A stretch of 64,000 nucleotides of DNA from Bryoerythrophyllum caledonicum (Eukaryota; Streptophyta; Bryopsida; Pottiales; Pottiaceae): assembly GCA_963971425.1 (NCBI GenBank), contig OZ020516.1, forward strand, positions 15,240,593 through 15,304,592, in the 5' to 3' direction. Position 1 is the stretch's first letter; each line of letters begins with the position of its first letter. Shown here one piece after another: positions 7,225 to 19,490 of the stretch. The notes under the pieces were generated by a model, which saw only the letters and a program-made list of their open reading frames with translations, did no database searches and had not been told where the DNA came from. Position numbers and translations under genes: made by a program.

Positions 7225-7460
7225 CGCCGGTCTCCGAAGGAGCCGGCGTGAATAAAGTGTCTGTTCGTTCCATTACTAAGACCATGCCCACCGGACAAGA
7301 AATTAGTAAACTGGAACTACTTCCCCCTCTCAAGGGTAGACACTATGTAACCGGTGACCAGATACCAACCAAAAAACAAACAACCAATGTAACAACTAAC
7401 TAAGCAAGTCGCCAAAACCACAAAACCAACAAGTCAGGATAAGTCTGGGCGGAGAAGCAT
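7225..7460 (-). other. LINE 3' UTR
   Basis: About 236 bases between the last stop and the (TTC)4 tail. It contains a GC-rich inverted motif, 'cgccggtctccgaaggagccggcg' on the plus strand, immediately next to the tail. That could form a stem-loop for recognition by the reverse transcriptase, but this is inferred from position only. Confidence 0.5.
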
Positions 7461-8552
7461 TTAAGGGGGGTCTTGTATATCGGGGAGGGCTTGGTTGTTT
7501 TTGATTTTACGTTTATGTAGCAAAATGGACATGGCATATTGAATAGCGATGGTGTTAATGTTTTTAAAGGTGGTTTTGATTGTTTCAATGAGTATTTTGA
7601 AGGTATCTTCAAGAGTTTTCATAGATGGGATGAAGGTGGTGGCACGAGCGCCAGATGTGATAACAATAATGGGGTCCTCATTCCATCCAAGGGCAATGAT
7701 GTCGTCAATGAGGGGTTGGTATTTGTCTATTTTGTTTTGGATTGTTTCCGGAGAAAATCTATCGTTGCAATATGTGAATTCAATGAATTGGATGGTGTAG
7801 TCTTGGTTAATGTGGTCGGGTGGCGGATCATTGTATGGTAAACCTCTAACACAGAGGATGTCCGGTTTGAGCCTAGCATTGCAATGGCATCTTTGGGTCA
7901 CAAATGAGCATGGGAGTAGCCAAGGGGAGACTGTATTTTCTTGTGGATTGTTATTAAAAGTGCCGGCGTTCATTAGTATAAAACATCTTGATTTATTGTA
8001 GGAGGTGATTAGTTTTCGGACTTCCCATACCGCTTTATTATGCCTTTTAACAATTAGAGAATGTATGTGGTGGTTTTGGCATTTGAGTAGAACATGAAGC
8101 CATGTGTCGGGGTCCGTTGAGGGGCATATGGGGCATGTTATGGATGGGAATCTTTCTATTCCAAAGAAGAGTTGTTTGCGAGCGTTTCCCATATACTGAC
8201 CGGTACGGAATTTGATGAGGCATGTTATTTGTGAGTCTGAGATGATGGGGTTTTTCCAAAAGTTTGTAGAGAGTTCATTGTCTATGTCGTTATTGTTAGT
8301 CCATTTTTCTATGTTAGGAATATTTTCTGAGATTGTGTCAAGGTTGTTGTCGAGGTCTTGTTTTTTGAGATATTTGCCCAAAAATCTAATTGGGCCTTTG
8401 TCGGGGGTATTTTCTTTGGAAGGCCAATCTTCTTTTTGAAAGTAGTATGGGGTGGCATGGGCATGTTCATGTGAGTCTGGCATTTTTGTGTGTTTTTTCT
8501 CGGCCTTCTTTTGCAAGTTTGTCTGCTTGTTCGTTGCCATCAATGTTGGCAT
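7461..8552 (-). CDS. LINE polyprotein C-terminus: CCHC zinc knuckle + PD-(D/E)xK-like nuclease
   Basis: 363 codons are open, though the natural start is upstream in another frame (the RNase H frame). Residues 140-158 form C-x2-C-x9-H-x4-C. An R-H-N triplet follows at 170-172, then P-D at 230-231, I-E-F-T at 257-260, K274 and D-K-Y at 276-278, and a hydrophobic strand ending in VITSGARATTF. In restriction-like endonuclease (RLE) LINEs a CCHC motif, an R-H pair, a PD...(D/E) and a downstream K..KY occur in this order. I therefore read this as an RLE-type domain. It could be a degenerate, non-catalytic version, since the spacing from D231 to E258 is longer than in R2-type enzymes. It lies downstream of RNase H, as expected for a C-terminal RLE. 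Confidence 0.65.
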   Translation of the reverse strand: MPTLMATNKQTNLQKKAEKKHTKMPDSHEHAHATPYYFQKEDWPSKENTPDKGPIRFLGKYLKKQDLDNNLDTISENIPNIEKWTNNNDIDNELSTNFWKNPIISDSQITCLIKFRTGQYMGNARKQLFFGIERFPSITCPICPSTDPDTWLHVLLKCQNHHIHSLIVKRHNKAVWEVRKLITSYNKSRCFILMNAGTFNNNPQENTVSPWLLPCSFVTQRCHCNARLKPDILCVRGLPYNDPPPDHINQDYTIQFIEFTYCNDRFSPETIQNKIDKYQPLIDDIIALGWNEDPIIVITSGARATTFIPSMKTLEDTFKILIETIKTTFKNINTIAIQYAMSILLHKRKIKNNQALPDIQDPP

Positions 8553-8935
8553 GGGCTCACTTTATGAAGGGTTGTGATTTGTGTACGGTTTTGTAACATT
8601 TGGACCATTGATGTTAATATGATTTGGTCGGGGTGGCTATTGTGGAGGGTAGGGTGTGTTATTTGAGTGTTTAGTAGGTAGAGTGCATTTATACAATCGG
8701 TGAATATATGTGCAGGTTCATTTTTGTATTTTGTTGTGATGATTTATAGTGTGTTGTGAATGGCCATGAGTTCTGCTCTGAGGATATTTTGTAGTCCGTG
8801 GAGTCTTTTGGCTAATTTAATTTCTTTGGTAGAATTATATATGCCATAGCCAGCTTTTTCTCTGTGCCAAGAGCCTAGGCTAATTTGTTCTGGTGGTTTA
8901 AAGGAGCCGTCGGTGTAGTAGCTGTGTGCGGGGTT
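8505..8935 (-). pseudogene. LINE RNase H domain (interrupted)
   Basis: Minus-strand translation shows YYTDGSFKPP near 8920, RAELMAIHNTL near 8770, IFTDCINALYLLN near 8710 and HANIDGNEQADKLAK near 8545. These contain the D, E, D and D residues and surrounding motifs expected of RNase H1-type domains in LINEs. Stops interrupt it: one follows NTL, and a TGA stands where a tryptophan codon is expected before AHANIDGNE. A frame change near 8510 separates it from the C-terminal nuclease frame. Confidence 0.8.
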
Positions 8936-9219
8936 AAATTTTGGTGTAGTATGAATTGGGTAGTCAGGGAGAGGGGGAGGTGTGACGGAGTAGTTTAGTG
9001 TGTTGTTGATATAGTTTAGTTTGGACCAGTTTTTACTTTTGTTTACGGGGGTTTGTATGGGTGTTGGTGGGGCTGATTTTGTGTATATTCAGTGTATATT
9101 TAAATTGTTTGTTATGTTGGTAAGTTCGGCAAGTTGTTCTAGGGAATTTAGGGTTTGATTTTGATGATGGACGCATAGTATTTGTAAGGTTGATGGCTCG
9201 ATTCGGGGTTTTTTTAGTT

Positions 9220-9985
9220 CGAGTGGGATAGTAGGTTCTTCGTATGGTATTGTGTCTGCCTCAAATACTGCAATGATATGGGAATCTGAAAATGGGTTTA
9301 AATGTTGGTTGTTGTTTTGGTACCAATTGTTGTTCGGTGTGATGATGATTGTATTTGTGTTATTTGGATCGTGTTTGGCGGCAAGTCAAGCCGAATGTAT
9401 TGCTTGTTCCATATCTTTCTCGTTGTGGGGGTGAGCTATACCATTACCGATCCATTTATAGTCAAAGGCCTTGCCTAGGGATCCGAATATTTTGTCTCTT
9501 TCATAGGGTGAGTAGAATTTTTTTAGTTTAGTAAAACATGTGACCGGGGAAGAAAAGTATGATTGTTCAATGTTAAAGGACGAGATTAGTGAGTCTAAGA
9601 TGGGTGTGGGTATTGTGTACTGCATATTTTTGAGGGAATCTTTTTTTGGTATTTGGTATTTGTACCTTTGGTATAGCCAAATTAATTCGGTTTCAAAGGG
9701 TTGGGTTGTTGGTTCGATATTCGTAGGAGTTTGTAGTTTTGTATTGTATTGATTCCATAGCCATTGGAGTCGAGTAACGGGGATAGTGTGTAAGTGTCGG
9801 CCATTTTCTTCATGTAAGTGTGCTTGATTGTTATCTATTTTGATTGTGTTCGAGTGTGTGAGGATATCATTTTCGGGGTTGCATTCTGTTGTATAAATGT
9901 TTAAGAGTGGGATAATTATGGGTGGTGTAACGGACCTTGAATCTGAGACTTGTTCTTGGGGGTGGTGGGCTAGGATGATATCCAA
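9220..9985 (-). pseudogene. LINE unassigned domain between RT and RNase H
   Basis: The open frame 9985-9386 ends at a TGA within ...QAIHSA*LAAKHDPN..., where arginine (CGA) is expected. The reading continues in frame to about 9220. The core motifs are SSPVTCFTKLKKFYSP, ERDKIFGSLGKAFDYKW, GNGIAHPHNEKDMEQA, TIIITPNNNWYQN and ADTIPYEEP. The FGSLG-x-F ... (N/A)-x-P-x pattern is reminiscent of the PCIF1-type adenine methyltransferase fold, with AHPH in place of the catalytic NPPF. This is an inference from motif order only. The N-terminal half of the frame is low-complexity linker. Confidence 0.45.
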
Positions 9986-10243
9986 GTAACTTTTGTTTTG
10001 AGTTTTTTGGTAGTATTGTTTTAATTTGACGGTATTATGTGTGGAGGTATTGGTATCGTATCGTGGGAAGAGATCTCTTTGGGGGAGCCATTTATTGTAT
10101 GTATTATCATTGTATTGCCATTGGCATAGATATTTTGTGTAGGTATTTTCTATGTTGTTTTTGTCTTTGTGTTGGATATGTTTATGGTGTATGATGTTAT
10201 CAATGGGATATGCAGTAGGGTTTTTGAAGATGTATGTTGGAAG

Positions 10244-10786
10244 TCAGGGATGGTATGGGTGTAGAAGGTTAGTGGGGTTGGTTGGTGGGGGGGTATTTCT
10301 TGGGATGATGCTATTATTGAGGGTGGTGAATGAATCTTTAAGTATATAGGAGTATGAGTGTATATTACAAGGGGTGTGACATGTATTGGGGCATGTTGGG
10401 GTGCAGAATAGTTGTTTAGCAACATTTAAAGCACTTTTTATTAGTTTGGATGGGGTGAAGTGGTAGTTTTTGAAGTCTTCATTTTTCATGATGTGTGTGC
10501 CGTTAGGTAAGGTAATTTGGCTTAGTTCAAAAATATTTTTTGAGAGGAGTTTTTGTAGAAGTTTTTGGGAGAGTTGGGCATTGAGTGTATTGTGGTTTGT
10601 TGTTTCTTGGCGCCATATTGATTCTAGTGGTGTGGGATTAATGAGGAAGTTTGAAAGCGTACTTTTAAGGTGGGCTTTAGCTATGTGCTTTAATAAGAAG
10701 AGAGTTCGTATTATTGGTGATCTTGTACAGTCGCTTTTTTTAAATTCCGGGTATGTTTTCGGCACCACCGTATTGGGCAAGGACAT
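10244..10786 (-). CDS. LINE polyprotein fragment downstream of RT (thumb/linker)
   Basis: 180 codons continuing the polyprotein after the reverse transcriptase core, overlapping the RT frame's end in another frame. It is helical, with RTLFLLKHIAKAHLKSTLSN and a cysteine-rich patch (CTPTCPNTCHTPCN). The region fits the thumb/connection between RT and the RNase H side. No independent domain is recognised. A frameshift at about 10750 separates it from the RT frame. Confidence 0.5.
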   Translation of the reverse strand: MSLPNTVVPKTYPEFKKSDCTRSPIIRTLFLLKHIAKAHLKSTLSNFLINPTPLESIWRQETTNHNTLNAQLSQKLLQKLLSKNIFELSQITLPNGTHIMKNEDFKNYHFTPSKLIKSALNVAKQLFCTPTCPNTCHTPCNIHSYSYILKDSFTTLNNSIIPRNTPPPTNPTNLLHPYHP

Positions 10787-12423
10787 AATGAGTTAGTCCA
10801 TTGTATATTTTTCCAAGTCTCCCTGTGTCGTTTAAAGCATTTTGTAGTTGTTCACCTATACACCTGAGATATGCGTTTTTGAAGGAAAAAGCTTCAAGCC
10901 CGAATAGGTTATGTGGGAGTTGGGTTATTGCATTTGACATACATTTTGGTAATCTACATATTGTTTTTTGTATGGCTATTATTTTTTGATCAAGTTTTTT
11001 GATAGCTGGCATAGAGTAAGGTACACTATAGAAACTATATGCCACCCCAGGGCGTAGTACAGTATCAACCATTTTTATTTTTTGTTTTATGGTGGCCGGA
11101 GAGGTTGTTAGGTCTTTGCATTGTTTGATGAGTTTTGTGGTTGTAGTGTGTATTTGGATTTTCCATTTTAGTGAGGGAACAAGGTTTGTTCCTAGATATA
11201 TGTATGGTTCATTTTGGTGTAATATAAGAATCGGTTGATTATGGTAATTGATATTAGAAGTTTGCATTAGAGCTTTGAAAGTGGTGGGATTCAATTTGGA
11301 TTTGTTTGGGCATCCAGTAGCAGCGCATTTTGGGACACCTACGTCCATACCGGTCCATTTGCAATATCTATCAATTTTATTTAGTTGTATTTGGATAGAT
11401 TTAATTTTGTTAGTTATTACGGCGAGGTCATCCGCGTATGCGGCAGAGTTTATTGTGACTTGTGATGTTCCAAACGTGTATCCATTTTTACCTCGTTCTA
11501 GCCATTTGAGTAGTGGTTCTAAGAAGATGATGAATAGGTATGGGCTAAGGGTGTCCCCTTGTATAGTTCTTCTTTGGATCGGTATAGGCTTTGTTCTTCC
11601 AAAGTATTCACCAATATAACAAGTGGTTGATTGGGAGTATATGTTTCCAACAAGTATAGTTGCATCTTTTGGATAATCAAGATCCATCATGATTGCTAGT
11701 AGTCGAGCATGGTCTATTGAGCCAAAGGCATTTTTAAAGTCAACGTATTATATATATATATATATATATATCTTGGTTAGTGAATGTTGCATCTTCTAGT
11801 GCGGCTATTATAGTTTGTATTTGTCTAGTGGTACTTCTTTCTGCTCTGAATCCTTCTTGACTATCATGTAGGATTTTGAATTTTTCACCGTATGAGGATA
11901 GTATAGAGGTGAGTGTACTAGTGTATAGTTTATATATTGTGTTAGCAAGTGCAATTGGCCTATGGTTGGGTAGTATAGATGGGTTACCTTTTTTGTATAG
12001 TAAAATTGTTGCACTTGTTTTCCATGAGGTCGGTATTTATTTTTGTTTATAGCAGTGATAGAAGAATAGGAATAGTAACTTATGAAATTTCGGGGGCATG
12101 TTTTTGAATATTGAGTTTGGTATGCGATCTGGTCCTGGGGCTTTGTTGTTACCAAGATTTCGAAGGCATGTGTCGTATGTGGCTCTGTTGAAGTATGTTT
12201 GTAGTGGGATTTCTGGTTCGCCTCGTTTGTCAAGGGTAAATCCATCAAGGTCATGCCATGGATATTGGCGTACTCCACATGTACATTTAGGTGGATGTTG
12301 TGGTTGGTAATCACATGTTGGTAATATTGGTCTGTTGAATTTTGTTTGTTGGTTGAATATTTCATTCGCAATGTCTTCGGGGCTAGTTAGAATATTATTA
12401 TGTTGATCTGTGATACAATCCAT
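10740..12423 (-). pseudogene. LINE reverse transcriptase
   Basis: The N-terminal RT motif NNKAPGPDRIPNSIFK is at ~12140-12095 (frame 12423-12037). VDFKNAFGSIDHARLL is at ~11745-11690. The frame 11690-10740 then carries RRTIQGDTLSPYLFIIFLEP and the catalytic YADDLAVI box at ~11446-11413, followed by GMDVGVPKC and YLGTNL. These are the standard non-LTR RT blocks in order. A (TA)n tract at ~11746-11771 breaks the frame just before the VDFKNAF block, and stops occur between 12037 and 11770. The family is secure; the copy is not functional. Confidence 0.9.
11746..11771. repeat. (TA)n microsatellite inside the RT domain
   Basis: An uninterrupted TA dinucleotide run sits in the codons just upstream of the RT motif VDFKNAFGSIDH. 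The run is probably a replication-slippage expansion of a short original TATA-rich codon stretch and is one cause of the frame break. Confidence 0.85.
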
Positions 12424-13039
12424 CCGCGGAGATTCTAGGTTTTTAAAGACTTTTCTATTAAAAAAATTTGGGCTAATTTTGTATAGATGTCTGTATTTTG
12501 AGATGGCTTTCTTAATATTGTTTTTGGCATATTTTAAGGTTACTTTCCGAGCTTGTATATTGGCGTTTTTTGCAATTAGTGCGATATCTTTTATCCGTGT
12601 GTCGTGGGATAGATCTGGGGGCGGTGGGGTAGGGATTTGGGTGTGTTGTAGAGTTAGGAGTTTGTTGTATATGGGGTGGTTACGCCATTGCTGGTTGTTT
12701 TTTATTATTCTAATGGCTTTCCGTATAACATGGTATGTAGTTAGGTGTTGTTTCCAAGTTTTAGAGAGTTTGCGGGGTAGATATCCGCCTTGTTGAGACG
12801 TTCTGTTTGTCAGTTGAGGTATTGGGTGGGCTCTACAAGTCTGTTCTAGTGTGTTAGTGATTTCATTGATGATTTTGTCTAGGGTATGGCATGCTTCTTG
12901 CCATTGTATTTGTGATAGTTGATTATTATTTTTAAGAGTGTTTATAAGGGAGTCTATTTGTGTGGAGTTTTTTTCAAAGAATTTTGTGTTGAATTTTTCT
13001 ATATTATCTTTGGAATGGGGCTGAGTATGCGTATAATGT

Positions 13040-13850
13040 TGTTGCTTTGGGTTGTAGGGGTTCTATTTATTAATATGTTGTTTGGGATGTGTAGTTGTAT
13101 TGGCAAGTGGTCCGAGTTGAGAGTACTATTCTTGTTTGTTGTAGAGGTGTATTGTGTATTGTTGTTTGTATTTATATAGAATCCATCTATTAGACTCCAA
13201 TCACTATAATTATAGCCATCTTGTCTAGAGAATTGTGTATCGTTATTGATGTAGGTAAAGTTTAAGTTTTCTGTGAAGCGGCGCCAGTGGTAATCAATGG
13301 CTTGAGGGGGGTGGTGTGATTTCCATTTTGGCGGCCAATTAGTGCTATGTCTTTGTTAAAGTCTCCACATAATAAGTATGTGTGGTTGGGGTTGTTATTA
13401 ATTTGAGATGTAATAACGTTTTGTATGTCTGTGATAAATCTAGTATCTTCTGGGTGAGATGGCATATACATGTGAAAGATTAACCATGGTTGTAGGGGAT
13501 GATTCGTAATTTTGATTATTTGAATGTAAGGTGATATGTGCATTCGGGTAGGGATTTTGTTGATGTTACCTGGAAAGGCATATTTTTTGTGTATTAGTGT
13601 AAGGAGGCCACCACGGCCCGGTGTGTATGGTCTCCGTTGTTGAATGCATCTTGTAAGTGCATGTGTATTGTTAAAGATGAGTTTATAGTCTTGGAATATA
13701 TTTTGTATATATTTTGTAGATTTTGTGGCGGTTAGTTTTGTTTCTTCTATAACTATGAAGGCTGGTGGTATGTCTGTGTTCGTGGCCAGAGTATATAAAC
13801 TCAGAAGGGCAGTGTTTAAGGAGGAGGCATTCCATGTGATTATGTATGTG
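13040..13850 (-). pseudogene. LINE APE/EEP-type endonuclease
   Basis: The minus strand reads YIITWNASSLNTALLS (~13845), FIVIEETKL with the catalytic glutamate (~13755), GRGGLLTLIHKKYAF (~13610), YLLCGDFNKDI (~13375) and NSDHLPIQLHI (~13110). These are the characteristic blocks of the exonuclease-endonuclease-phosphatase fold found at the N-terminus of LINE ORF2 proteins. The frame 13543-13262 is open and the rest is interrupted. Between this domain and the RT (13040-12430) several stops mark decay. Confidence 0.85.
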
Positions 13851-13859
13851 TTTTCTTGA

Positions 13860-14488
13860 TTTGATCTAATGTTTTGATTATGTGGGGGGATGTGGTGCAG
13901 TAGTGGGGGTGGGTGGATGTATTATGGTATGGGATCTAAACATTTTAGTGATTCGTTTATGAGATTGTTAGGGAGGTAGGGGAATTTTTGTTTTATTATT
14001 TCGTTTGAGGGGAGTGTGGTTTGATTATGTAAAAAGTTATATAGTTCTACATGTATTGAATTGTTATGGTTTATAATACTTTGGTTGTCTTCGAGGAACT
14101 TTGTATATGGGTGTGGAGTATGAATGTGTCGTTCTGGTGGGTTTCGTAAGTTTAGTAGAGTTTGTAGGAGTGTATTGGTCCATGTGATTATGTTCGGATT
14201 TTGTGGGTTTAGGAGATGGTTACATTTATCTATTTGTGGGTGAGTAGTGACTACTAGGGCATATAGCATGTGAGGTGGCGGATGCGTATTTTTTTGTTGT
14301 ATGTATAGGGCAATGTTTGGGTGTGTAGTGTTATATGTGTGGTGTAATGTGTGCGTGTTTTTTAAGAAGGGTGCAAAGGATTTTGCAATGTGTCCATATT
14401 CTGGTTGTAGATTTATGGTGTTAGGTATGAAGTATATTTTGGCATTTTTCTTATGTAATGTAGGGTGTCTTTTTAGTATATTAGGCAT
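13860..14488 (-). CDS. LINE 2A unit 2: domain downstream of the second 2A motif
   Basis: The frame begins at the ATG (14488) that immediately follows, one base out of phase, the NPGP codons of the second 2A motif. It runs 188 codons to 13922. It contains HTLHHTYNTTHPNIALYIQQ, THPPPHMLYALVVTTHPQID and NLRNPPERHIHTPHPYTKFL. Unit 1 upstream has matching segments in the same order (HTQHHIQKIMYPHIARPIHQ, PPPHTPYTIQPNTKDCNRL, NLPKRQINTPSNTSI). The domain has no recognised family. Its position just before the endonuclease means that, in an intact element, ribosome skipping would release it from whatever precedes it. Confidence 0.6.
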
Positions 14489-15399
14489 GGGCCCGGGTTG
14501 GTTTCTATGTCTCCTCCTAAGAGTAGTAGGAGTTTGTGGCGTATATGTTTAGTGGTATGTTTAAAAGTTTTTGTTTGTTGTATATTTATTTGAGGCTTTG
14601 TTATGGTTTTAAAGTCTTTTTTGTTTGGGGGGTGGGTGTTTGTTTTTTGTATGTGGATATTGATTTTTTTGTTGTTCATTTTCAAGGTAGGTGTATTTGT
14701 TTTTATCATTAACTTTTTTTGTGTCCATGTGTTTATTTGTGTAGTTATTTTTGTTGTGCTAGAGGTGTTTAGGAATGTGTATGATTTTTTGTATATTTTT
14801 TTGTTTGTCTTTGGCCTCGTGTGATTATTACGTATGAGGATGTTTGTATGTGGATTTATGCTAGTATTTGAGGGGGTATTGATTTGTCTTTTAGGGAGAT
14901 TCCGTAATTTGGTTTTGGTTTTTAGCATTGTGTTGGTCGGTTGAGTGGTTTTTAGTTGCTGAGGGTCTGGGAGGCGGTTACAATCTTTTGTGTTAGGTTG
15001 TATGGTGTATGGGGTATGTGGTGGAGGTTTTGAGTTATGTTGGTGTATGGGTCGGGCAATGTGTGGATACATGATTTTTTGTATGTGGTGTTGAGTATGT
15101 GTATTATGAAGGGGGGGTGAGAGTTTTTGGGTAGTGTGTTTGTATTCTGGGCGTGTTCTAGTGGAGTTTGATATGAGGTGTATTTTGACATTTTTTGCTT
15201 CTTGTGGAGAGTTTTTTAGTGTTTTTGGCATGTGTCCGGGGTTGGTTTTTGTGTCTCTGATTTGTAGTAATAATGATAATAATAATAATAAATTTTTTTT
15301 ATAGTGTGTTAGTATTTTGGTATGTAGTATTTGGTTTGTCGGTCCATGTGGGCATTTTTGTTTGATTTTATTTTTGTTTTTTTGTTTTTTAATGTTCAT
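14473..15399 (-). CDS. LINE 2A unit 1: degenerate 2A, domain, then canonical 2A motif
   Basis: A 308-codon lysine/threonine/histidine-rich frame. Near residue 50 it has a leucine run followed by QIRDTKTNPGHM, a degraded 2A. It ends with KLLLLLGGDIETNPGP, which matches the 2A consensus D-x-E-x-N-P-G-P preceded by a leucine-rich stretch. 2A-like motifs at the N-terminus of LINE polyproteins are known in trypanosome and animal non-LTR elements, where they cause ribosome skipping between G and P. The segment between the two motifs is homologous to the segment after the second. The stop a few codons beyond NPGP results from a one-base frame change relative to unit 2. Confidence 0.7.
   Translation of the reverse strand: MNIKKQKNKNKIKQKCPHGPTNQILHTKILTHYKKNLLLLLSLLLQIRDTKTNPGHMPKTLKNSPQEAKNVKIHLISNSTRTRPEYKHTTQKLSPPLHNTHTQHHIQKIMYPHIARPIHQHNSKPPPHTPYTIQPNTKDCNRLPDPQQLKTTQPTNTMLKTKTKLRNLPKRQINTPSNTSINPHTNILIRNNHTRPKTNKKIYKKSYTFLNTSSTTKITTQINTWTQKKLMIKTNTPTLKMNNKKINIHIQKTNTHPPNKKDFKTITKPQINIQQTKTFKHTTKHIRHKLLLLLGGDIETNPGPCLIY
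14488..14535 (-). promoter_or_regulatory. 2A-like ribosome-skipping motif
   Basis: Codons read KLLLLLGGDIETNPGP, ending at 14488. The residues D, E, N, P, G, P stand at the consensus positions, and the leucine-rich run is typical of LINE 2A sequences. The second, degraded copy lies 744 bases upstream in the sense direction (15229-15300). Confidence 0.8.
15229..15300 (-). promoter_or_regulatory. Degenerate first 2A-like motif
   Basis: NLLLLLSLLLQIRDTKTNPGHM. It retains the leucine run and N-P-G. The E of D-x-E has become K and the final P has become H (CAC; CCC-type proline codons differ by one base). It probably no longer skips. Confidence 0.65.
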
Positions 15400-16040
15400 T
15401 TTTTTCCTTTTGTTTATGTGTTGGAAGGAGTTTTTATTTGTTTTGTTATGAATGTTTTTGTTTTTTTTTGTTTGTGTTTGTTTGTGTTGTTGTTGTTGTT
15501 TTTTTTTTTTATTTCTATTTATTTTGTGTGTATAGGTTTTAATTCTATTGTGTTTGTATGTCGTTTTGTGCTTGTGTTTCTGTACAGGTGTGTGTATGTT
15601 TGTGTTGTTTGTGTGTTTTGTGTATGTATTTGTATGTGTATGGGTGCTTGTGTGTGTGTTTTTGTAGGTGTATGTGTTTTTGAGGTACTTTTTTGTTTTA
15701 GAGTGTGTGGAGGGGTGTTTTTGGTGTATATATGTACGTGTATTTTGATATGTATGTAATTTCCTTGTTTTTATGGTTGTGTTTGTGTGTATGTGTGTTT
15801 TTTGTGATTGTGTGTATGTATTTTTGGGGGTGGTTTTTGTATTGAGTACAAAATGGGATTTTTTGGAATATTGTATGTATTCAGCATAGTATTTTATACA
15901 TTTTGTATTTTTGTATCTCTATACCGCTATGTGTATAAGTATTTGTATTCTAGGATATGTATTGTATCTTTTCCTATACCGAGTATTGTACTCTAGGGCT
16001 ATAGTATGGTAACTAATGATTACCGTGTAGTCTTGTTTCT
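15400..16040 (-). other. LINE A/C-rich spacer between coiled-coil ORF and 2A units
   Basis: Extreme strand bias: the plus strand is almost all T and G with very little C. The minus strand gives low-complexity Thr/Lys/His/Tyr-rich frames with stops. The long plus-strand frame (15331-15759) is a low-complexity shadow. No domain is seen. Confidence 0.6.
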
Positions 16041-16441
16041 TCACATGTTTGATGGATCCTTGTCTTTAAGTAATAAGTTCTTCTTTCCCGTTATGACGGA
16101 CATGCTTTTGAGTACTCCAAACAATGCATCTTGTAGGTTCTCCATCTCCCCCTTGAGTTCTTTGTGCATTTTGTCGGTGTATTCTCGGGTCTCCTTTCTA
16201 ATCTTTTTGTTGTTGTTCTCCAAGAGTTCCACCATATCTTCCTTGGTGATAGTCTCGTTCTTGTCTTGCAATGTGTAGGTGGAGAGGGTGTTGACAATTG
16301 CGGTGTTGAATCATCAAAGCCAAAGCTCTTCACTTCTTCCTCGGTGGGGCGGTTGATGCCTTCCAAACTCCTTCTATGTGGTGCAAAATCCACATAGTTG
16401 CCATTCATGACAAAGGTTTTGTGTACAAATGTCCTATACAC
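16041..16441 (-). pseudogene. LINE ORF1 C-terminus: coiled coil
   Basis: The frame 16271-16041 encodes TITKEDMVELLENNNKKIRK followed by ETREYTDKMHKELKGEMENL, a heptad-like amphipathic helix of about 45 residues, and then a basic end. An overlapping frame (16441-16091) carries the sequence just N-terminal to it. Coiled coils are common in LINE ORF1 proteins, where they drive trimerisation. Here the coiled coil is C-terminal, not N-terminal. The frame break near 16270 separates it from the rest. Confidence 0.5.
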
Positions 16442-16492
16442 AATAGGGTTAGCACAAAGAACATTGGCGTTACCATTATGACAATTTTCATC

Positions 16493-17462
16493 TTATTTGT
16501 GGAACCAAATGTTTCTTATGTTAGTTCCTCCCATGATTTTGTAGATTTCATGTGAAGTATTCATAACATCAAGGTGAATAGGGAGAGGGGAGAGAGTTAG
16601 GGTAAGGGCTTCTTTCCTTGCTTTGGTCTCTACCACGCCGTTGGTACCTTTGTTGTCATGTACTTGTTTTGTTTGCACCACTTCTCCTCTCAGGGCCAAG
16701 TGGTGTGCTAGCATTTTCTTGGTTTGGAGTGGTGTTGTGGCAATGATGAACGCATGGGCATCTCCATGTCCTTTTTTGCACCCCGGAGATTTCGAAATTG
16801 TGCCCACGGTGGAAGTTGCTCTCGAGGATTTCCTTAAAGAGGGCTTGAGCTGAAAAATCCATCAAGTTTTCACTTTTGATTTTCACAGAAAGGTTAGCAC
16901 CCTTTGCAATACTAAGATAGGCCTTGCATACCTTCCCAACGACAAACTCATCATCAATTTCAAGGATGAATGGCCTAATGCCCTTCAAGAGTAATAGACC
17001 ATTAAATTCGGGTTTGAGTAAGTGCATTTTAATACCCCCATTCCAAACTCCCTTCTTCCCCCCTTTTTTGATGCTAAAACATTGGATTACTAGTGGGTCT
17101 ACAATGTTCTTTCCAAGTGCTATGTCCATTTTATTGAGCCTCTCAAAAACCATCTTTTTAACCATATCGCGCATGAGAGGGGTTTTGGGGAGTTCAAAGT
17201 GAATAGCAACGTGATAATCAAGGGATAGGCCAGAATTTTCGTTAATCTTGATGTCATATGGTATTTGGGTTAGATTAAAATGTTGTCCCTCAATTCCTTT
17301 TATTGACATGGGATAGAGGGTTTGTGGAATCCTAGGAAATGCAATTCTTGCTTCACTTACCTCTTCCGCTTCTTCCTTGCGCATACCTCTTGTCATCATG
17401 TCCGCCACTTTTTCGCCGCTATAGAGTTCCTCCTCTCCTTCTTCCACCGCTAAAGCCTCCAT
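16493..17462 (-). pseudogene. LINE ORF1 main domain (single frameshift)
   Basis: The frame opens with an acidic start (MEALAVEEGEEELYSGEKV) at 17462 and remains open to 16656. True coding appears to switch near 16800 to the frame 16807-16493 (AHAFIIATTPLQTKKMLAHH). The middle part has alternating strands and helices: FNLTQIPYDIKINENSGLSL, VWNGGIKMHLLKPEFNGLLL, FVVGKVCKAYLSIAKGANLS. It could be an RRM-like nucleic-acid-binding fold, as in other ORF1 proteins, but I see no clear RNP motif. It lies 88 bases downstream of the 532-aa ORF. Confidence 0.5.
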
Positions 17463-17549
17463 GGCTTGGAAGCCTAACCAAAATTTAAACTTAGTTAGTT
17501 TGGGAGTTTGGGTGTACTTACCTTTCTCTGATAGAGAAGCTCTACTCTT

Positions 17550-19148
17550 CTAGTTGGTGCTTGTAGTTTCTTCCCCTTTCCTTGTTGTCTTTGGGTTCTG
17601 GGCCTTGGCTGGGCTCTCCTCCTGTGATACTACCTCCATTTCTGTGTCGAGGCTTCTCTTGGGAAATCCTGTCATATTGGGTTTGTGACTTACCTGGTTA
17701 CTGGGGTGGTATGACGTGAGACTTGGGTGAGCTGGAGTAGAGTTTGGAGTTGGCGCTCTTCCAATTCCAGTGGTTGTGGAGTTTGAGGGTCGGCGTGGAC
17801 TAAACTGGGGTTCTGTTACGTTGCCGTTGGAGGGAGGATTCCTTCTTCTGCCTTGGCGCTCCTTCTTGCCTGCAGGGATTCTGCTCCTTCCTCTTGCTTG
17901 GCGCTCCTCTAACCTCGCAGTATCGTTGGCTTGCGTGTGTATTCGGAGGGGGGAGACGTCGAGGTCTTCTTCGAGTGTTGTTCTTGTGTGCCGCTCGACC
18001 TCCTCAGGCTGTGTTCTTCGGGCGGTCTTCCTACCTTGTTTGGGTTCTGTTACTCCAGTTCGGGCTGTGTTCTCGTTGGGTACTCTTGATCCTGCTTCTA
18101 CTCCTGTTCGGGCCTTGTTCATGGCGGTCTTTACACGCAGTGGTTTCAGTGAGTTCAAGGTTAGCTTCGAGGTCTTCCTATCTTGAGGGCGTTCGTTGGC
18201 GCAGGATAACTTCCTCCAGGTGAATCTCGGTGCCGTGCACGGTGGATCTGCACGGCGGACAGCCGTGAGCGGTGGGCAACTTGTTTGTGACTTCTTCGCG
18301 TTGGTGCTGGGGTTTGCGTCTTCCTTTCGTTGTTGCTGGGGCTTCTGTTTGCTTTTCTTCGGTGTTGGGTTTTGTGAGCATCTTGCGTTAGTGTTAGGCG
18401 TTTGGGAGCCTCCACTCCACTGCCGTGGGCTTCTCTGTATCCACTGGGATCTTGGTACTTGAGCTATCTTGTGTTGCCTGTTGATGCTGAGTGTGTAGAA
18501 GATCCTTCTTTTCTTGTTCTGTAGCTCTTGGTGTAGTGTGTAGCCTCCCTTCTTGATCACGATCTTCTCCCTGGTGTTCCAGTCTTGACTTGTCGGTGTG
18601 TGTTGTTGTGTACAGGTCTCTCCTCTATGCGTTGCATCCGGGGGTGGGCGGTAGTTGTAGCAATGCTGCTCTTGGAGGTGCCACCAGTAGTGATTCTTTC
18701 GTAACTTGTTTGCTGCAGTAGGGTTAGGTTTAAATCTAGGGGGAGATATATACCTATGACTTACGTGGGTGCATTGTGATTTTAGTGCACTTTTTGTGGT
18801 CACTATGTATTGTGTGTGAACTACAGTGCTAACTAGAGTGTGATTTTTATACAAAAGGAGAGAGGAGGGAATTAGACTTATCTGATTTGCTGGTGTTGAC
18901 GTTTGGGCTCCCTGTTGCTGAATTATTTGATGCCGAGCTGCTTCCCTGCCGAGAAGACACTGTAGTTTGTGGAGATTCGAAGCTTGCTTTCTTGTTGTCT
19001 GCTGTTTAGTTGTTTGTTGTCGAGCTGCGAATGTTGGCTTGTCTACTCCGGGGGAATTTTGAGTGCGCGCGATCTCTTGTCTGGTGTTGCCTTGTTTCCT
19101 GCAAAAGTGGGGTACAGCAGTTCGTGGGGATTCGGCACTTGTGCACAA
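17550..19148 (-). CDS. LINE 5' ORF: 532-aa low-complexity basic protein
   Basis: The longest intact ORF in the window. It is rich in Gln, Pro, Ser, Thr and Arg, with no predicted globular domain. The first ~50 residues are encoded by the last of the 5' tandem monomers (ARQQTTKQQ, EAARHQIIQQQ). Basic stretches near the C-terminus (RQARGRSRIPAGKKERQGRR) suggest nucleic-acid binding. Its G/C content is higher than that of the downstream polyprotein. Whether it is translated is uncertain, since the low-complexity composition could keep the frame open by chance. A position upstream of the ORF1-like frame would fit an accessory ORF or an N-terminal extension of ORF1. Confidence 0.45.
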   Translation of the reverse strand: MCTSAESPRTAVPHFCRKQGNTRQEIARTQNSPGVDKPTFAARQQTTKQQTTRKQASNLHKLQCLLGREAARHQIIQQQGAQTSTPANQISLIPSSLLLYKNHTLVSTVVHTQYIVTTKSALKSQCTHVSHRYISPPRFKPNPTAANKLRKNHYWWHLQEQHCYNYRPPPDATHRGETCTQQHTPTSQDWNTREKIVIKKGGYTLHQELQNKKRRIFYTLSINRQHKIAQVPRSQWIQRSPRQWSGGSQTPNTNARCSQNPTPKKSKQKPQQQRKEDANPSTNAKKSQTSCPPLTAVRRADPPCTAPRFTWRKLSCANERPQDRKTSKLTLNSLKPLRVKTAMNKARTGVEAGSRVPNENTARTGVTEPKQGRKTARRTQPEEVERHTRTTLEEDLDVSPLRIHTQANDTARLEERQARGRSRIPAGKKERQGRRRNPPSNGNVTEPQFSPRRPSNSTTTGIGRAPTPNSTPAHPSLTSYHPSNQVSHKPNMTGFPKRSLDTEMEVVSQEESPAKAQNPKTTRKGEETTSTN

Positions 19149-19490
19149 GCTGCCTGTTGTTGGATTATCTGTTGCCGAGCTGCGTTCTGGTTGGATGTTG
19201 ACTCGTCTGCTTCTGGGGTGGCTTTATGCGTGAGCACTCTGCTGCCTAGTGTTGCCGAGCTGCGTTCCGGTTGGATGTTGACTCGTCTGCTTCTGGGGTG
19301 GCTTTATGCGTGAGCACTCTGCTGCCTAGTGTTGCCTTGTCCGATCCGAAGGTAGGATCCAGCAATTCGTGGAGATCCAGAGCTTGTGTACAAGCTACTT
19401 GTTGCCGGGACGTCTGTTGCCGAGCTTCGTTCCTGCCGAGTGCTGACTTGTCTGCTCCAAGGGTTGTCTTGGGTGTGAACGTTCTGTATT
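18930..19490 (-). repeat. LINE 5' tandem monomers
   Basis: Three or more diverged ~150-210-bp units share 'gttgccgagctgcgttc', 'gactcgtctgctcc', 'agcaattcgtggagatc' and 'tgtgcacaagct'. Within them is a near-perfect 80-bp tandem duplication (19171-19250 and 19251-19330), the two copies differing at one base (T/C). Tandem 5' monomers act as promoter units in some LINE families, such as mouse L1. That role is inferred here from position. Confidence 0.8.

Follow-up and report, generated by a model that had tools for sequence, protein, structure and literature searches.

Element and domain layout

The window analysed in this study is the whole stretch of 64,000 nucleotides, and all positions given below refer to it. 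Its minus strand carries what appears to be a dead copy of a Dualen-like LINE, in which an APE-type endonuclease, a reverse transcriptase (RT) and a PCIF1_WW domain could be recognised. PCIF1 is a cap-adjacent m6Am methyltransferase. Table 1 lists the features of the element from its 5' end onwards.

Table 1. Features of the LINE copy in the window, with the basis of each assignment.
Feature	Position	Strand	Basis and remarks
Single open frame of 481 codons with 5' region, 2A no. 1, unit 1 and 2A no. 2	14476..15918	-	stop-to-stop ORF
2A-like motif no. 1, LLLLLSLLLQIRDTKTNPGH, degenerate	15232..15291	-	core p13 T, p14 K, p19 H
Unit 1, eroded upstream domain copy, open	14536..15231	-	homology to unit 2
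2A motif no. 2, KLLLLLGGDIETNPGP, full consensus	14488..14535	-	sequence
Unit 2, all-helical domain of 188 aa, one frame over from 2A no. 2	13925..14488	-	TAA at 13924-13922 follows
APE-type endonuclease, N-terminal part	13265..13860	-	Pfam Exo_endo_phos, E=4.5e-4, under curated cut-off
APE endonuclease, remainder	to about 13000	-	different frame
Reverse transcriptase, interrupted by a stop and a frame change	10743..12250	-	5' limit approximate, by eye
Weak chromodomain, just before PCIF1_WW	10070..10204	-	PF00385, E=0.0033, under cut-off
PCIF1_WW (PF12237), between RT and RNase H	9446..9733	-	E=8.2e-12, over cut-off
RNase H-like stretch, broken	8502..8923	-	PF00075, E=0.076; limits partly by eye
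C-terminal region with CPIC..H..C cluster and PD...E.T pattern	7464..8498	-	by eye, from the translation

The endonuclease lies upstream of the RT and shows continuous homology with P0035 and P0005, the latter of which is annotated with PF14529 and PF03372. For the RT the Pfam scan gave an RVT_1 match in the frame 11747-10743 (E=3.6e-17) and no RVT_1 match in the portion before 11747. The RT is of the LINE type, and its relatives reach identities of up to 76% (best 120 of 141 matches of the protein search). At 11749-11771, where the RT coding sequence changes frame, lies a TA microsatellite. Relatives such as P0011, P0014, P0018 and P0019 carry the PCIF1_WW annotation as well, and RNase H is clear in the relatives P0016 and P0018. 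In the C-terminal region the Pfam scans gave no match to a restriction-like endonuclease; the CPIC..H..C cluster and the PD...E.T pattern, seen by eye only, suggest a resemblance to one. The last long frame of the element ends near 7461.

The available text of PMC4640811 defines the Dualen/RandI group by an APE endonuclease, an RT, an RNase H and a C-terminal restriction-like endonuclease. An APE-type endonuclease upstream of a LINE-type RT is what we found in the window; these two domains are common to the window LINE and the Dualen/RandI elements of green algae, and the RNase H and the C-terminal restriction-like endonuclease perhaps are as well. The Dualen placement reflects the similarity to two named green-algal proteins, which were the nearest named RT relatives among the matches listed: P0021 of Haematococcus lacustris (39%) and P0033 of Pleodorina starrii (45% identity over 75% of the RT query). 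Judging from these two relatives the LINE in the window is probably green-algal. The RT relatives P0020 and P0033 are also annotated with PF02099, the cysteine protease domain Josephin.

A one-base shift between NPGP and the next ATG puts unit 2 out of frame with its own 2A, and a TAA parts it from the endonuclease. P0035 reads through both positions without interruption and we therefore regard the window copy as dead. The translation of the LINE body contains several further stops and frame changes. A BLASTN comparison of 7301-16000 with the window yielded nothing but the match of this stretch to itself, a TA repeat and one alignment of low complexity, so no second copy was found within the window. 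Around the whole element no more than three 13-nt matches, each with one mismatch, came up as candidates for a target-site duplication; they are unconvincing, and insertion of the element in one piece is thus only putative. Scans of viral contigs and genome contigs confirmed no locus of the relatives in DNA, nor did phage records yield a match in a distant search.

Across 8001-16000 of the window the sense strand of the LINE is rich in A and C, with a GC skew of up to 0.685 on the plus strand. Long open frames lie upstream of the LINE at 16041-19223 on the minus strand, among them one of 297 codons at 16656-17549 and one of 557 codons at 17550-19223. For the 297-codon frame no Pfam match exceeded the cut-off. 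These frames are possibly another mobile element.

Two 2A motifs in one open frame and their homologous units

The original prediction described a duplicated 2A-domain cassette at the start of the LINE polyprotein, with a full consensus motif at 14535-14488 and a degraded motif upstream of it. The coordinates of both motifs are correct: their ends are 744 nt apart and they share the minus-strand frame 15918-14476. The difference in their state was also confirmed. Motif no. 2 reads DIETNPGP, follows an L-rich stretch and agrees with the core (D/G/C/N)(V/I)ExNPGP, whereas motif no. 1 reads DTKTNPGH (RDTKTNPGH with the preceding residue) and departs from this core at three positions.

The alignment of the two segments showed that they are homologous, and with it the tandem duplication itself was upheld. 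The local protein score of unit 1 against unit 2 was 275, compared to a mean of 60 (SD 10, maximum 106) for 2000 shuffles. BLASTN aligned the units at 69% over 248 nt (E=1e-16) and BLASTP without composition correction at 39% over 164 aa. A profile built from 52 relatives, which covers the domain and the endonuclease and was run without bias correction, scored 73.1 on the upstream region of the window, and the best of 1280 shuffled decoys reached 37.9. Chance is ruled out by these shuffles and decoys as the cause of the similarity. In the default HMMER listing for the domain profile, where bias correction is on, unit 2 was listed and unit 1 was absent. Unit 1 thus matches the family weakly and with a compositional bias, yet it matches unit 2 strongly. 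Unit 2 in turn is 53% identical to the domain of P0035, and the duplication would have taken place in the lineage leading to the window copy, after its split from the P0035 group.

The whole 481-codon frame contains no stop, compared to a mean of 24.6 and a minimum of 12 stops in 2000 dinucleotide shuffles. For unit 1 we counted 0 stops in 232 codons, with 14 and 13 in the other two frames; the shuffles of this unit had 11.1 stops on average and none of the 2000 was stop-free. Base composition does not by itself explain the open frame, since the shuffles contained that many stops although the sense strand is poor in T. We also simulated neutral drift from unit 2 with a simple model that allows substitutions only. 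The probability of observing no stop was 0.032, 0.0105 and 0.0035 at a divergence of 0.20, 0.32 and 0.40, respectively. The observed divergence between the two units is 0.40, mostly on the unit 1 branch of the tree. The open-frame data speak for an ORF that was kept open after the duplication. They do not show selection on the unit 1 peptide, because a stop there would silence everything downstream. The differences between the units by codon position were 55, 46 and 82 in 153 codons. We do not claim purifying selection on unit 1, as the third-position excess could have arisen wholly on the unit 2 branch.

Tandem 2A motifs in the relatives

The protein searches gave the best 120 of 141, 120 of 144 and 51 of 51 matches, and 270 different proteins were listed in total. 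The family set comprises 153 of them (P0121-P0270, P0004, P0005 and P0035). The other 117 came from the RT search alone and most of them are more distant; P0001-P0003 are close relatives outside the set of 153, which start inside or after the endonuclease. As a strict 2A pattern we used [DGCN][VIM][EHQ]xNPGP, i.e. M was allowed at p13 and H or Q at p14, with the position numbering of the available text of PMC12846837.

At least one strict 2A was present in 76 of the 153 family proteins. At least two were present in 8/153, which is not a frequency, since the alignment behind the last search already held P0144, P0159, P0207 and P0236 and tandem cases are thus enriched. The eight proteins are P0144, P0159, P0207, P0253 (with three motifs), P0254, P0260, P0261 and P0267. 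Residue shuffles gave 0.005 strict motifs per set. In each of the eight, unlike in the window copy, a single ORF carries at least two intact 2A octapeptides ahead of the endonuclease, and in P0144 and P0159 the leader, both 2As, the domain and the endonuclease are found within one ORF. With a looser pattern the counts rose to 87 with at least one motif and 10 with at least two, adding P0236, in which the first motif, GDMEPNPSP, is broken, and P0243 (NLGP). P0270 shows GDIEKQPGP followed by GDIHPNPGP. Among the other 117 proteins we found a strict 2A only in P0052 and P0113, one in each. The deeper RT relatives P0006-P0034, many of which may lack the N-terminus, contain no NPGP.

The spacer between successive 2As measures 36-151 aa in P0144, P0159, P0207, P0243, P0253 (77 and 120), P0254, P0260, P0261 and P0267, and 13 aa in P0270.

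Origin of the stacked modules

The domain tree was computed with IQ-TREE (LG+F+G4), rooted by hand, and comprised 59 sequences across 200 columns; besides both units of the window and five upstream remnants it included 52 members of the family set of 153. First and second LINE type as well as T clade are names coined in this analysis. Unit 1 of the window is sister to unit 2 (UFBoot 88) with branches of 1.71 and 0.32, a difference in length that could mislead the tree. In P0236 unit 1 likewise stands beside unit 2 (UFBoot 83). As the upstream unit groups with its own downstream unit in both cases, these are separate duplications. The identity of the upstream unit to its own downstream unit was 39% and 44% for the window and P0236, respectively, and 31% between the two upstream units.

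The T clade (UFBoot 100) contains all 8 proteins with intact tandem motifs together with P0238, P0240, P0243, P0262, P0265 and P0270. Given these groupings, stacking occurred at least three times, i.e. in the window, in P0236 and in the T clade. A FastTree analysis of 78 domains, largely the same sequences as those given to IQ-TREE, repeated the T grouping for the 8 members then included. For the 13 T-clade proteins with upstream sequence the first 2A is intact in 8, degenerate in three (P0240, P0243 and P0270) and lacking in two (P0262 and P0265).

The upstream remnants differ in their placement. For P0144 the tree puts the remnant next to P0153 and P0268, which belong to the second LINE type (nodes 93 and 97), and its identity to P0153 is 59% over 56 aa. 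The remnants of P0159 and P0253 (55-70 aa) pair with each other (89) near the base of the first type, outside the second-type cluster, and the remnant of P0267 (40 aa) falls near them. For P0159 the best full match of the remnant outside its own clade is P0214, a protein of the second type, with 41% identity over 51 aa, and by eye the lead-in before the first 2A of P0159, P0253 and P0267 resembles the second type. In P0261 and P0267 a lead-in typical of the 2A of the second type is combined with a domain of the first type. By these comparisons the upstream module of P0144 would clearly come from the second LINE type, and the other upstream modules of the T clade probably do so as well.

A recurring motif was noticed 5' of the 2A in proteins that include P0124, P0133, P0151, P0248 and P0259, in the form of ASAYRPRHK, ARPTGLAH or PHGPTN (the last in P0234, and in the window near 15355). 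At the RNA level this motif may delimit the module on its 5' side. The ASAYRPRHK type is present two or three times in P0151, P0237, P0248, P0249 and P0259. Just before it an endonuclease-like fragment was seen by eye in nine relatives (P0125, P0133, P0151, P0160, P0171, P0184, P0235, P0245 and P0251). With the profile, only P0151 (38.7) beats the best decoy (37.9) and P0251 comes near it (35.8), so that the single cases are weak. The fragments and repeated motifs fit head-to-tail growth at the 5' end, or insertion into older copies.

For the window, a nested or adjacent insertion would mean that unit 1 is what remains of the 5' part of an older member of this family and that a newer full-length element inserted just downstream of it, the two never having formed one transcript. 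The available text of PMC8226300 describes Zepp LINEs of green algae that insert into their own copies. The upstream copy of P0236, with 5' motif, 2A, domain and the start of an endonuclease followed by a second 5' motif, is built like a truncated older element, and the apparent endonuclease fragments of the nine relatives point in the same direction. However, unit 1 is stop-free along its length despite its high divergence and continues in frame into 2A no. 2, no second PHGPTN is found between the units in the translated frame, and the T-clade arrangement recurs in several proteins of one clade. We consider an insertion of this kind unlikely.

Function of the 2A motifs and of the domain

The downstream domain is predicted to be all-helical (AlphaFold2, mean pLDDT 91.5), and its structure had no convincing match in PDB or BFVD. 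In the relatives inspected it is contiguous with the endonuclease and no 2A intervenes; the domain is therefore not released. A Met directly follows the last 2A in 56 of 81 proteins. According to the available text of PMC12846837, variants with H at p14, as in GDIHPNPGP, are >95% active in their native context, E14Q had 26-56% activity in earlier work, and more than half of the p19 substitutions retain >40% activity. Motif no. 1 of the window differs at p13, p14 and p19 jointly and is therefore predicted to be weak or inactive.

To evaluate the state of the two domain copies we counted how much of the hydrophobic core and of the conserved residues is kept. Unit 1 of the window retains 26/42 of the core and 23/51 of the conserved residues, compared to 43/46 and 47/56 for unit 2. 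The same was observed in P0236, with 22/45 and 28/56 upstream compared to 44/46 and 54/56 downstream. The upstream domain copy thus looks like a leftover that is wearing out.

The original prediction also expected the cassette to release two related small proteins, which would require each 2A to set free a working copy of the domain. Homology extends over most of both units, no stop interrupts the frame and related elements carry two intact 2As, all of which agrees with a pair of functional paralogues. Against this, the first 2A of the window is broken, much of the core is missing from both long upstream copies, the stretch between the 2As of the T clade is short and diverged, and the downstream domain stays fused to the endonuclease. 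A pair of functional paralogues is very improbable, and this part of the original prediction was not supported.

The tandem 2As could also serve a purpose in themselves: the one upstream would free a membrane-type leader, the spacer would tune how many ribosomes reach the RT, and both 2As would be under selection in the T clade. Across nine T-clade proteins the mean pairwise identity was highest in the downstream 2A region (0.74), followed by the upstream 2A region (0.57), the domain (0.44) and the spacer (0.19), but identity was taken over the longer sequence and the proteins were chosen by motif, which favours both 2A values over spacers of unequal length. A hydrophobic stretch is consistent with such a leader: in 10 of the 14 leader-pattern proteins the Kyte-Doolittle value exceeds 1.2 over one or more stretches of 19 residues, and the remaining four look like chance matches to the pattern. 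In the available text of PMC11512398 some picornavirus 2As halt translation without restart. Set against these points are the motif-based choice of proteins, the unequal spacer lengths that depress spacer identity, and an intact first 2A that is missing in 5 of the 13 T-clade proteins. A separate role of the tandem 2As is compatible with our preferred explanation, and we rate it as possible but somewhat unlikely.

Discussion

The explanation that we favour, and regard as probable, is that the LINE in the window is a dead, Dualen-like copy whose 5' coding module of 2A and helical domain underwent an in-frame tandem duplication, and that the family repeatedly stacks such modules at its 5' end. 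Homology, the open frame, the tandem 2As of the relatives, the placement in the tree and the loss of the core form the computed basis of this explanation. New 5' modules would have been added repeatedly, in frame, ahead of an existing polyprotein of 2A, domain, endonuclease and RT. The source of the module would be the own family in the case of the window and P0236, or the second LINE type in the case of P0144 and probably of other T-clade members, and template switching during reverse transcription may be how the stacking arises. Ribosomes would skip at every intact 2A, such that the leader and a short spacer peptide leave before the protein of domain, endonuclease and RT is made. The upstream domain would be dispensable and would therefore erode and shrink; its frame would stay open because a stop there would cut off everything downstream. 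The upstream 2A, which may be under selection, persists in most of the T-clade copies seen and has decayed in the window.

A more far-reaching proposal can only be put forward tentatively. A clade of algal LINEs may produce its replication protein by way of two or three successive StopGo sites after having captured a complete 5' coding end, with membrane leader and 2A, from a different LINE. Modules could be swapped precisely at the edge of the 2A, in line with the combination of lead-in and domain in P0261 and P0267. The stacked sites would set the ratio of leader to RT and the 2A would act as a recombination-tolerant joint. We lowered our confidence in this proposal slightly, because the tree placed only the remnant of P0144 in the second type.

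Both LINEs with a 2A and picornaviruses with multiple 2As are already known (available text of PMC4981915 and PMC11512398). LINE 2As lie in frame in the polyprotein and follow the consensus D(V/I)ExNPGP (PMC4981915, same scope). APE-type LINEs with an in-frame 2A, as in the window LINE, include L1Tc of Trypanosoma and elements of sea urchin and other animals. To our knowledge the 2As of these LINEs are single sites. In contrast, two or three sites stand in series here, with duplicated or borrowed 5' modules between them, and the LINE is Dualen-like. Head-to-tail growth at the 5' end is shared with mouse L1, which has tandem 5' promoter monomers; these are non-coding, whereas the module described here codes for a 2A and a domain. 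Among the literature matches listed we found no report of two 2As in one LINE, which does not establish their absence from print, and the available part of PMC4640811 makes no mention of the term 2A peptide. The picornaviruses of the Paavivirinae share serial 2A sites with variable short tracts between them, in numbers that vary among close relatives (PMC11512398, available text). They differ in that theirs are RNA virus polyproteins with the sites mostly between capsid and replication proteins (same source), whereas the sites described here stand ahead of a LINE endonuclease and RT.

If 2As can be stacked and 5' modules swapped, LINEs could gain new N-terminal proteins while the RT remains unbroken, as a module would need no more than a 2A at its end. 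If this is true, the family would be a natural non-viral counterpart to the multi-2A picornaviruses, and could be used for testing the effect of extra 2A sites.
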